Assembly: GCA_022614695.1 (NCBI GenBank)
Contig: JAKEIC010000331.1
Location: 1-33,669 of the forward strand
DNA length: 33,669 nucleotides
Direction of reading: 5' to 3'
Source: Planctomycetales bacterium
GTDB lineage: Bacteria; Planctomycetota; JAKEIC01
Shown here piece after piece: positions 3,428 to 6,547 of this stretch. A program made the position numbers and the translations under genes. The notes beneath the pieces were generated by a model, which saw only the letters and a list, made by a program, of their open reading frames with translations, was not told where the DNA came from and did no database searches. Within the stretch, counting starts at the first letter, position 1. Each line of letters opens with the position of its first letter.

Positions 3428-3574
3428 CCAACTTGGTCGGGTCGTATCCGAACGCCTCCGCGCCCGGGTGCCAGTGCCAACCACAACCCATTGCGATAAA
3501 ATGCGTTACGAGTTGGGCGCATGACGCGCAAGCCGGTACGACGGTTGCGCTTGGAGGTCCCTGGAGGTGTCTCG

Positions 3575-4450
3575 ATGACCCGAGCGACGCTCGTCCTCTC
3601 GACCCTGGCCCTCGCCGCCCCGTTGGCTTCGGCCGACGTCGTCCACCTGAAGAACGGCCGGTCGCTCGAGGGGAAGGCCGAGGCGAAGGACGACAAGGTC
3701 GTCCTCCGGACCCTCCACGGGATCGCGATCGTGGCGGCCGCGGACGTCCAGAGGATCGAGACCAAGCGCTGCGTCCTCGACGACTACGCGGACAAGCTCG
3801 CCGCGACGAGCCTCGGGGACGCGGAGTCGCTCCACGCCCTCGCCTCCTGGTGCCGCTCGGTGGGCTACGCCTCGAAGGCCAAGGAGCACGCGCGGGCCGC
3901 GATCTCGATCGAGCCCAACCACGTCGGCGCGCGCGGGATCCTCGGCCATGCCCTGGTCGCGGGCGCCTGGGTGACGCGGGAGGAGGCCCTCCGGTCGGCG
4001 GGCCTCGCCGAGCACGACGGCAAAGTCGTCACGACCGAGGAGGCGGAGAAGGCCGACGCGGCCGCGGCCGCGAAGTCCCGGCGGGCGCGCCTCCAGAGGG
4101 TGGTGGACCGTCTGGTGCGTACCATGGCCTACCCCGACGCCGAGAGCCGCCGGATCTCCCGCGAGTCGCTCGAGAAGATCGCGGAGGTCGAGAAGATCCC
4201 GGGCCTGAAGGAGTCCGTGGACAAGGTCTACAAGTACTACGAGCGCGTGGCGCCCGCCGTCCAGACGGGGGGCGGCGTCGCCATCATCGAGATGCGGTTC
4301 ACGAAGGCGGAGCTCAAGCGCCCGATACAGGAGATCAAGACGAACCTCGGGCAGGCGAACTCCACCCAGGTGACGATCCAGCTCCCCGAGCTCTCCATCG
4401 TGGGCGTCGAGACCACGGTCGCCGTGCCGCTCGGGCTGCAGGGGGACTAG
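3575..4450 (+). CDS. secreted protein of unknown function with N-terminal beta domain and TPR-like helices
   Basis: The product is predicted to be exported and its function is unknown. I place the start at the ATG at 3575, residue 19 of the listed ORF. It has a GGAGGTG Shine-Dalgarno a few bases upstream and begins a clean Sec signal (MTRATLVLSTLALAAPLASA). The mature start, DVVHLKNGRSLEGKAEAK, resembles the small beta unit seen at the N-terminus of many planctomycetal secreted TPR proteins (a family impression, not a database hit). It is followed by helical TPR-like segments (HARAAISIEPNHVGARGILG) and a Lys/Glu-rich middle. The C-terminal ~60 residues are more beta-like (TQVTIQLPELSIVGVETTVAV). 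The next gene begins 21 bp downstream in the same frame, so only one stop codon separates them. Confidence 0.8.
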   Translation: MTRATLVLSTLALAAPLASADVVHLKNGRSLEGKAEAKDDKVVLRTLHGIAIVAAADVQRIETKRCVLDDYADKLAATSLGDAESLHALASWCRSVGYASKAKEHARAAISIEPNHVGARGILGHALVAGAWVTREEALRSAGLAEHDGKVVTTEEAEKADAAAAAKSRRARLQRVVDRLVRTMAYPDAESRRISRESLEKIAEVEKIPGLKESVDKVYKYYERVAPAVQTGGGVAIIEMRFTKAELKRPIQEIKTNLGQANSTQVTIQLPELSIVGVETTVAVPLGLQGD

Positions 4451-4457
4451 GCTCGGG

Positions 4458-4463
4458 TACGAT
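4458..4463 (+). promoter_or_regulatory. putative -10 element (TACGAT) for a leaderless kinase-TPR mRNA
   Basis: TACGAT lies 8 nt before the GTG start at 4472. With the usual ~7 nt from -10 to the transcription start, the mRNA would begin at or next to the GTG. No convincing -35 hexamer is seen 16-18 bp upstream. The same arrangement recurs before several other genes in this window. It bears on whether the truncated kinase is expressed. Confidence 0.4.
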
Positions 4464-4471
4464 TCCCGGGC

Positions 4472-6547
4472 GTGCCGACCGGGCCGCGGGCCTTCCTCAC
4501 CGACTTCGGGCTCGCGAAGTCCGTCGCGACGGGCTCCAAGCTCACCCGCACCGGCCAGGCCCTGGGCACGCCGGCCTACATGAGCCCGGAGCAGGCCCGT
4601 GGCGAGACATCCTCCCTCGCGGCCGCGACGGACGTATGGGGACTCGGGTGCGTCCTCTACGAGATGCTCGCCGGCCGCCGGCCCTTCGCCGGGGAGACAG
4701 CGCCCGAGCTCCTCGCGAGGATCCTGGAGGAGGATCCTCGGCCGCTCCGCGCCGCCCGTCCCGACGTGCCGCGCGGCCTCGAGGTCGTCGTGGGGGTCGC
4801 GCTCGGGAAGGCCCCGCGCTCCCGCTACGCGGAGATCGCCGCGCTCCGGGACGACCTGGACCGGGTGCTGCGCGGGGAGCTGCCGTCCGCCCGCCAGGCC
4901 CGCCGCAGACGCCGCGGGCCCCTCCTCCTCGCGGGCGTCGCGGCCGCGGGGCTCGCGGGCGTCGCGGGGGCGGTCGTGGTCGGGTCCCGAGGGCCGGCCG
5001 ATCCCGGGTCGAGGGCCACCTCCCCGCCTCCGGCCTCGGTCGCCGAAGCCCTGGCCGGCCAGGCGCGGCGCCTGCGCTTCTCCGACCCCCGGGGCTCGGC
5101 CCGGCTCCTGGCTCAGGCGATCGGGGAGGCGGAGGACCATCCGCGTCGAGAGGCCTGGCGGCTCGAGCGAGGGCTCCTCCTCTGGTCCACCGGCGAAGGC
5201 GCGGCCGCCCACGGGGAGTGGGGACGCATCCCGCCCGGGGCGCCGGAGGCTCCCGCGGCGAGGCTCTACCGCGGGCTCGAGAGGCTGTTCGAGCGCGACG
5301 TCGAGGCCGCCCTCGCCGAGCTGGACCTCGTGTCGGCCGTGGACCAGGGAGGCTCGCGCGAGCCCCGGCTCGCCCGGGCGGCGATCCTCACCGTGCGCGG
5401 GACCCTCGAGGAGGCGCGCGAGGCGCTCCAGGGCGAGGAGGGGTGGGAGGCGGCCATCCTGCGTGCGGCCACGCACCACTTTGATCCCGCGGGCGACCGG
5501 GCGGCCGCCGCCCGGGAATACACGCGGGCGCTCGAGGAGGGGCTCCCGTTCGCCTGGCTCTACCTGAACCGCGGGGTCGCCCGCCAGGAGCTGCGGGAGC
5601 TGGGACCCGCTATCGAAGACTTCACCGAGGCGCTGCGGATCCGGCCCGACTGGCCCTCGGCGCTCGGGAACCGCGCCCTGGCGCGGGGCGAGCGGGGAGA
5701 CAAGCGGGGGGCGCTCGGGGACTACGAGGCCGTCGCCCGGCTCCGGCCCGAGGATCCGGACTTCCGGTACAACGTGGGCGTCCTCCGCCACGACCTGGGC
5801 GACGCCGCCGGAGCGATCGCGGAGTACGACCTCACGTTGCGGCTCCTTCCGGACGACCCGGTGACGCTCACGGCGCGCGGCGACTCCAAGACGGCGCTCG
5901 GCGACTTGCGAGGGGCGATCGAGGACTACTCCGCCGCGATCCGGAGTCGCCCCGATCACGCCAACGCCTGGAACAACCGGGGGGCCGCTCGTCACACCTT
6001 GGGGCAGCACCTCGAGGCGATCGCCGACCTGAACGAGTCGCTCCGGCTGGAGCCCGACGACCCGGCCGCCCTGAACAACCGCGCGAACGCCCGGGCCTCG
6101 CTCGGGCGGATGGAGGAAGCGCTCGCCGATTGGGACGAGGCGCTGCGGCTCCGGCCGGACCACCCGGCCGCGCTCGCCGCGCGCGGGCTCGCCCTCACGG
6201 AGCGGGGGCAGCCGGAGCGGGGGCTCCCGGACTTCGAGGCCTCGCTGCGGCTCCGGCCGGACCACCCCGAGACGCTCGTCCACCGGGCCGACGCCCGCCG
6301 GCGCCTCGGGGACCTTGGGGGGGCCCTGGCGGACGTCGAGGCCGCGCTTCGGATCCGACCCGGGTACGCCTACGCGCTCGCCCACCTCGGGTGTGTCCGG
6401 GAGGACCTCGAGGACCTCCCCGGCGCCGCCGAGGCCTGGGCCGAGTTCCTGCGCGTGGCGCCGGGCGACCCGCAGGCGAAGGAGGTGCGGGAGTGGCTCG
6501 CGAAGTGCCGAGAGCGGATCGCTGCCGCCGGGAGGCCGGGGAAGTGA
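4472..6547 (+). CDS. Ser/Thr-kinase-like protein lacking the N-lobe, with TM helix and nine TPR repeats
   Basis: The protein opens directly at the activation segment: FLTDFGLAKS (D11-F12-G13), then GTPAYMSPEQA (S38-P39-E40) and TDVWGLGCVLYEMLAGRRPF, which is kinase subdomains VII-XI. The glycine loop, the VAIK lysine, the alpha-C Glu and the HRD catalytic loop (roughly 150 residues) are absent. An in-frame stop, that of the preceding gene, lies only 21 bp upstream, so the missing part is not encoded there. A basic stretch (RQARRRRRG) and one transmembrane helix follow near 149-173. After a ~190-residue helical region come about nine 34-residue TPRs (~360-670) of the form AIEDFTEALRIRPD. As encoded it cannot be a competent kinase. 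It could be a scaffold/pseudokinase or a decayed receptor kinase. The C-lobe and TPRs carry no frameshift or stop, and a -10-like element sits just upstream, which favours expression. Confidence 0.8.
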   Translation: MPTGPRAFLTDFGLAKSVATGSKLTRTGQALGTPAYMSPEQARGETSSLAAATDVWGLGCVLYEMLAGRRPFAGETAPELLARILEEDPRPLRAARPDVPRGLEVVVGVALGKAPRSRYAEIAALRDDLDRVLRGELPSARQARRRRRGPLLLAGVAAAGLAGVAGAVVVGSRGPADPGSRATSPPPASVAEALAGQARRLRFSDPRGSARLLAQAIGEAEDHPRREAWRLERGLLLWSTGEGAAAHGEWGRIPPGAPEAPAARLYRGLERLFERDVEAALAELDLVSAVDQGGSREPRLARAAILTVRGTLEEAREALQGEEGWEAAILRAATHHFDPAGDRAAAAREYTRALEEGLPFAWLYLNRGVARQELRELGPAIEDFTEALRIRPDWPSALGNRALARGERGDKRGALGDYEAVARLRPEDPDFRYNVGVLRHDLGDAAGAIAEYDLTLRLLPDDPVTLTARGDSKTALGDLRGAIEDYSAAIRSRPDHANAWNNRGAARHTLGQHLEAIADLNESLRLEPDDPAALNNRANARASLGRMEEALADWDEALRLRPDHPAALAARGLALTERGQPERGLPDFEASLRLRPDHPETLVHRADARRRLGDLGGALADVEAALRIRPGYAYALAHLGCVREDLEDLPGAAEAWAEFLRVAPGDPQAKEVREWLAKCRERIAAAGRPGK

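Follow-up and report, generated by a model that had tools for sequence, protein, structure and literature searches.

The window analysed here, a stretch of 33,669 nucleotides, contains at 4472..6547 on the forward strand a gene for a C-lobe-only kinase/TM/TPR receptor of 691 amino acids, identified from its uninterrupted open reading frame (ORF) with a GTG start, from Pfam and from AlphaFold. The ORF begins ten residues ahead of the DFG motif (residues 11-13), and its match to the Pfam Pkinase profile covers only positions 139-212 of 263, beginning after HRD. The HRD catalytic loop is not encoded in the ORF, and the Gly-rich P-loop and the VAIK lysine of subdomains I-II are absent from both the ORF and its upstream DNA. 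On the same strand, a separate gene of 309 amino acids (3521..4450) sets the 5' limit of the C-lobe gene; its TAG stop lies 21 bp 5' of the GTG, and the two share a frame by chance. This neighbour gave no Pfam match and is not a kinase; its start resembles a signal peptide, and a weak, sub-cutoff NCBIfam match was obtained to PTPDL_fam. The -10-like hexamer TACGAT (4458..4463, forward strand), separated from the GTG by an 8-nt spacer, is the probable promoter of a leaderless transcript, and the same arrangement, in the DFG frame, was found in 54 of 120 paralogues. Repeats were searched for around the window junction, and nothing was found. The first-pass annotation had reported a start ten residues before DFG without P-loop, lysine or HRD, an unrelated complete gene ending 21 bp upstream, TACGAT 8 nt ahead of the GTG and a frame free of stops and frameshifts, and our results agree with it on each of these points.

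The kinase C-lobe, delimited by the Pfam match and by conservation, extends from beta8 (AFLTDFG) to alphaI (4490..4882, forward strand, as are all features of the gene) and includes the activation segment from DFG to SPEQ (4502..4594). A TM helix is predicted at residues 145-171 (4904..4984) from the sequence and an AlphaFold helix; an Arg-rich stretch lies just before it, and by the positive-inside rule the kinase side is predicted to be cytoplasmic. The helical repeat domain (5039..6532), recognised by Pfam TPR and modelled with a pLDDT mostly above 95, consists of about four irregular pairs followed by about 10 TPRs; the annotated TM helix was retained, and the annotated nine TPRs became about 10 regular ones plus the irregular pairs. 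The closest solved structures are of PknB/PknA type, such as 3f61 and 3oro (E 5e-26 over residues 9-138). The window C-lobe is similar in sequence to these Hanks-type kinases, but the window protein corresponds to PknB only from about residue 157 onward. Of the features of a complete Hanks-type kinase, DFG, an APE-type motif, the alphaF Asp and the subdomain XI Arg are present and invariant or nearly so across 123 C-lobe-only (C-only) sequences. Compared with kinase-TM-TPR receptors, the window protein has the TM helix and the TPRs, but only half of the kinase domain.

The source genome (G000) is a Planctomycetota MAG of 5.0 Mb in 369 contigs, 88% complete. A search of it with the window protein revealed dozens of paralogues with 45-52% identity across most of the length, most of which likewise begin just ahead of DFG, and the DNA pattern DFGLAK..TGS..LT occurred at 140 places compared to none for the reversed control. 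We took a census of the 619 kb around the matches, classifying C-lobes by profile HMMs. The results showed 160 C-lobes, of which 31 share their ORF with an N-lobe and 129 do not; for 122 of the 129, at least 600 nt of upstream DNA were included, and the C-only genes are accordingly counted as at least 122. About 13 family members have a full kinase domain. An independent whole-genome Pfam scan yielded about 115 full kinases, many matches starting at about profile position 139 and one match covering only positions 1-132. The C-only units adjoin one another in tandem at 44 junctions, forming runs of 2-5, and of the 104 assessable copies 98 remain open for at least 540 codons beyond DFG, a few copies being broken. 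Assembly error was ruled out by the at least 122 loci, many of them tandem arrays within contigs. A missed or frameshifted N-lobe upstream was also rejected, since a convincing N-lobe-like ORF within 1.5 kb was present only on contig C52; one further upstream match, on C331, was negligible (E 0.016). The gene first noticed as a single oddity belongs to a large, lineage-specific family in which relics of N-lobe loss are preserved.

The starts of the C-only genes were assessed in the 130 nt before AFLxDFG. The pattern TANNNT-N(3-15)-start codon occurred 54 times in the DFG frame compared to 2 and 4 times in the other frames, with spacers peaking at 6-9 nt and TAGACT, TAGGAT and TACGAT as the commonest hexamers. 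By its sequence, this is the arrangement of leaderless genes, and it marks the starts as real. In tandem units the start codon often overlaps the preceding stop (GTGA), as on C347 and C100, leaving just two residues ahead of AFLADFG. Together, the at least 122 paralogues and the in-frame -10/start arrangement place the C-lobe-TM-TPR architecture beyond chance.

Constraint was strongest in the kinase part. Among 97 C-only genes, the activation segment, more conserved than any other stretch of the family, had a median pairwise nonsynonymous difference of 0.10. The value rose to 0.23 for the C-lobe, 0.43 for the TPRs and 0.52 for the TM helix plus linker; synonymous differences in the same genes were 0.42-0.57, near saturation in every part. 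We report pN and pS because dN/dS proper is not meaningful under synonymous saturation at 75% GC. In thirteen full family members, pN was 0.16 in the activation segment and 0.25 in the C-lobe. Since synonymous sites are near-saturated everywhere, in the C-lobe as in the TPRs, the C-only pattern reflects selection on the protein, and recent gene conversion was not supported as the source of C-lobe conservation. Among the C-only sequences, the DFG-Asp (123/123), P+1 Thr (123/123), alphaF Asp (122/123) and APE-type Glu (122/123) are practically invariant. Their roles are to contact Mg-ATP or the catalytic loop, or to stabilise the C-lobe itself, the contacts of the first three being established from the structure of PKA; the ATP site and catalytic loop that they contact are not encoded in the C-only proteins. 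The activation-loop Ser/Thr residues show higher conservation among C-only sequences than among full kinases of the family (T14.96, S16.98, T19 1.0, T21.93), and a C-only-specific alphaG and P+1 signature (L85, A78, A35, A79, K16, C60) distinguishes the two groups (P 2e-8 to 4e-4, with kinship among sequences ignored).

AlphaFold, run on the window protein with 59 paralogues, gave confident C-lobe helices and TPRs, and low scores (blocks 29-57) for residues 1-48, which include DFG and P+1; taken alone, the activation segment is predicted to be disordered. For the full family kinase on C141, modelled with 26 sequences, the DFG block scored 82 and P+1/APE 94, the insert and the activation loop proper scored low, and the model, which folds like PknB, matched PknB structures. 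These predictions suggest that the most conserved stretch, from DFG to APE, does not fold without the missing half and is mostly ordered with an N-lobe.

Traces of the lost half were found in the leaders of the C-only genes: 9 of 84 resemble the opening 26 residues of kinase domains at P<=0.01, compared to 0.8 expected. Such relics precede the C-lobes on C301 (MRPGPYEVVAERGRSGEINREG-VYLADFG), C194 (MRTGPYETHAELDREGR-PHLADFG) and C201 (MRIGPSEFHEPIGRAGVANVHGTRHVEPL-AFLTDFG). Because their junctions differ, the N-lobes were lost through internal deletions, probably in more than one event. C167 retains MNVGP fused to HRDVKPPDIL. In the full kinases of the family, the beta7-beta8 turn is enlarged by 14-46 residues at precisely the point of the split, and some C-only leaders look similar to these inserts (C270 compared to C120 and C141). 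The inserts lie between NIL and AFLTDFG in the full kinases of loci L026, L027, L029, L042, L054, L105 and L148 and are of two main kinds: a well conserved RKWGDEDVAHGAPRNARS with a short GCGCGAAGCGCG hairpin, present in eight kinases, and a longer, hairpin-forming kind rich in ACAAACG repeats. They are in frame and look like small repeat elements that may have opened the way to the split. Minisatellite-like DNA, comprising GTGAACCGTGAACCGT and related sequences, lies directly before the C-lobes on C72, C130 and C290 and also at L054:764-1687, and such sequence forms a loop insert inside one N-lobe (PPTVNSERGTVNC). One family kinase at a contig edge (L102, G000:C202:14858-15492) has a degenerate catalytic loop, HRDVSPETI, with YLCDFG, and is possibly an intermediate on the way to loss of activity. 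The family tree is star-like and poorly resolved, with full and C-only forms mixed; 9 parsimony changes were counted, 2 of them forced by strongly supported (starred) branches, and dating the truncations by the tree was given up for its poor resolution.

A search for an isolated N-lobe ORF ending in HRDxKxxN, proposed in the first-pass annotation, returned exactly one gene in the genome. It lies on C52 (L075:1573-2073) and encodes 167 amino acids (MNVGPYEVLSELGRGGF...VALKV...HRDVKPGNILIGRKV, then a Pro/Ala tail and a stop). The protein covers Pfam Pkinase positions 1-132 of 263 and ends in the beta7-beta8 turn, complementary to the start of the C-only proteins. A second gene encoding the complementary kinase half is therefore present in this genome, and pairing the C52 N-lobe with any C-only protein gives one copy of every kinase motif. 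Its nearest N-lobe, that of the C141 kinase, shares 80% identity with it, with a pN of 0.11 compared to a pS of 0.36. Two C-only genes follow the C52 gene downstream, a TfoX_N-type gene intervening. The gene is preceded by the promoter TTGACG-N17-TATAAG and a Shine-Dalgarno sequence. In all 5 Mb of the genome (about 75% GC in the sampled part) there are only four near-consensus TTGACN-N16-18-TATAAN sites (G000:C33:4616, C52:1491, C157:5117 and C205:30361), the C52 site being the one before the N-lobe gene; this rarity is a post hoc observation and should be weighed as such. Neither tblastn with the N-lobe nor PF00069 over the genome detected a second N-lobe-only gene, contig-edge N-lobes on C164, C255 and C98 aside.

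The 80 named loci compared, drawn from Planctomycetota and other phyla, contained 88 kinase C-lobes, all of them in full kinases. Of the C-lobes checked in new loci, 27 of 28 were full, and the remaining C-only-looking one (L244) was cut at the locus edge. The C-only family was not found among 293 other Planctomycetota genomes, for which best matches rather than every kinase were compared; the best match to the window C-lobe there had an E of 4e-39 (48%), compared to values down to 2e-63 for its own paralogues. The only same-order genome compared (G001) encodes full kinases, frequently carrying long inserts in this beta7-beta8 turn, and in it we detected neither the C-only family nor a functional N-lobe-only gene. 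It contains a single C-lobe-only protein, perhaps an independent case, with a Cys-rich N-terminus, a C-lobe piece and a beta-helix-like repeat domain (L121, G001:C99:8036-8404), and a degenerate N-lobe fragment, not a functional gene, in which FIHRDIKPANLM is followed by an unrelated frame (L264, G001:C144:12375-12578).

Pseudokinases as a rule keep the two-lobed fold and lose single residues. The C-only proteins resemble pseudokinase receptors and scaffolds as kinase-derived receptor parts with no catalysis alone, but they lack a whole lobe and yet keep DFG, and the window protein, with no N-lobe at all, is not a bilobal fold minus catalytic residues (pseudokinases are reviewed in PMC7586955 and PMC8141879). 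In the Planctomycetota member 'Ca. Uabimicrobium amorphum', a lineage-specific expansion of kinase-TM-TPR/WD40 receptors has been described, with 525 of 610 counted as functional for keeping K and both catalytic D, and an N-lobe-less group is not discussed in the main text (PMC11032199). The present family shares with those receptors the lineage-specific expansion, the cytoplasmic Pkinase part, one TM helix and a TPR array predicted to be periplasmic; unlike the functional kinases, at least 122 of its members are without the whole N-lobe and catalytic loop. As in two-gene split enzymes, complementary parts lie in two genes and meet at an insert-tolerant loop, but here about 120 C-parts occur per one N-part. 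Kinase-TM-TPR expansions are already known in Planctomycetota (PMC11032199), but in the literature covered, mainly papers outside subscription journals, we found no report of an N-lobe-less family or of a natural kinase split between the lobes.

We consider completion in trans by an N-lobe donor to be the best explanation of the C-only receptors, with a probability approaching but not reaching an even chance. It is favoured because of the invariant DFG-Asp, the catalytic-loop contacts and the complementary N-lobe gene; the first-pass annotation had offered this reading alongside a constitutive decoy or scaffold, which remains its rival. Under completion in trans, about 120 paralogous membrane receptors would each hold a Hanks-type Ser/Thr kinase C-lobe in the cytoplasm, joined by one TM helix to a TPR sensor across the membrane. 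The family would derive from kinase-TM-TPR receptors with an insert-tolerant beta7-beta8 turn, the N-lobe having disappeared through an internal deletion or through a start that newly arose within that turn. An N-lobe bringing the P-loop, Lys and HRD catalytic loop would complete each C-lobe; its donor would be the C52 protein and/or the N-lobes of the roughly 13 full family kinases, and signals sensed by the TPRs would select the receptor that recruits this common half or activates it. The data show the family with its starts, constraint and relics, and the lone N-lobe gene with its unusual promoter; binding, catalysis and sensing are what we infer for these receptors.

Several sequence features favour completion in trans: the at least 122 C-only genes alongside one N-lobe-only gene ending at the complementary point, the lowest nonsynonymous difference in the activation segment and C-lobe, the inserts of full kinases at the split point, and the rare promoter, Shine-Dalgarno sequence and low pN relative to pS of the C52 gene. 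The disorder of DFG and P+1/APE modelled alone, and their order with an N-lobe in the C141 kinase, are suggestive in the same direction. Against it stand a single N-lobe-only gene from one 88%-complete MAG, which, at 80% identity, could have arisen recently as a truncated duplicate of a C141-like kinase, and a DFG whose invariance could be partly inherited if the truncations were recent. We hold with less confidence a specific form of completion in trans, a one-to-many split kinase, in which one strongly expressed soluble N-lobe with the catalytic loop would be common to about 120 membrane-bound C-lobe/TPR receptors, each turning into an active kinase with its own sensing only on capture of that half.

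Alternatively, the C-only receptors may be non-catalytic phospho-acceptors or scaffolds, on whose alphaG/activation-segment surface full kinases dock and phosphorylate the conserved Ser/Thr; they would then be substrates, decoys or adaptors that never form an active site. This is a real possibility, although we lean away from it. We retain it because the activation-loop Ser/Thr at T14, S16, T19 and T21 are conserved beyond those of full members and the alphaG is distinct, the alphaG/P+1 signature (L85, A78, A79, A35) suggesting a docking partner of its own, and some 13 full kinases of the same family are available in the genome; however, it leaves unexplained both the separate N-lobe gene and the invariance of DFG-Asp, P+1 Thr and alphaF Asp in proteins without an ATP site or catalytic loop. 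It is improbable that the TPRs do the work of the protein while the C-lobe is an inert anchor in the cytoplasm, or a relic, in a family spread by duplication: the TPRs are intact and folded in the model, tandem duplication is frequent and the N-terminal part is predicted to be disordered alone, but a C-lobe far more conserved than the TPRs (pN 0.23 compared to 0.43, and 0.10 in the activation segment) fits this poorly. Simple decay, with kinase pseudogenes spread by recombination, would account for the differing relic junctions and the few broken copies but fits as poorly with the intact state of 98 of the 104 assessable copies, with promoters and starts that keep the frame and with strong constraint; we judge it very unlikely, as the first-pass annotation did in calling the gene unlike a randomly decaying one, which the at least 122 paralogues with real starts, intact ORFs and a C-lobe as their most conserved part bear out. 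Equally slight is the chance that the C-lobe/TPR units are silent cassettes recombining behind an N-lobe at the beta7-beta8 turn, in line with arrays of 2-5 units, repeat-like inserts at the junction and a tree of mixed forms, since each unit comes with a promoter and a start codon of its own and the paralogues are highly diverged, with near-saturated synonymous sites and thus no recent conversion visible.

The usual view of a protein kinase is that of a two-lobed unit that cannot be divided. If completion in trans is true, this family would be the first case known to us in which a kinase is split between its lobes and put to combinatorial use. Even as scaffolds, these proteins would form by far the largest N-lobe-less kinase family known to us and a clean system for the role of a lone C-lobe. 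In either case, counts of kinases by Pfam in genomes of this kind take in many proteins unable to be kinases alone.
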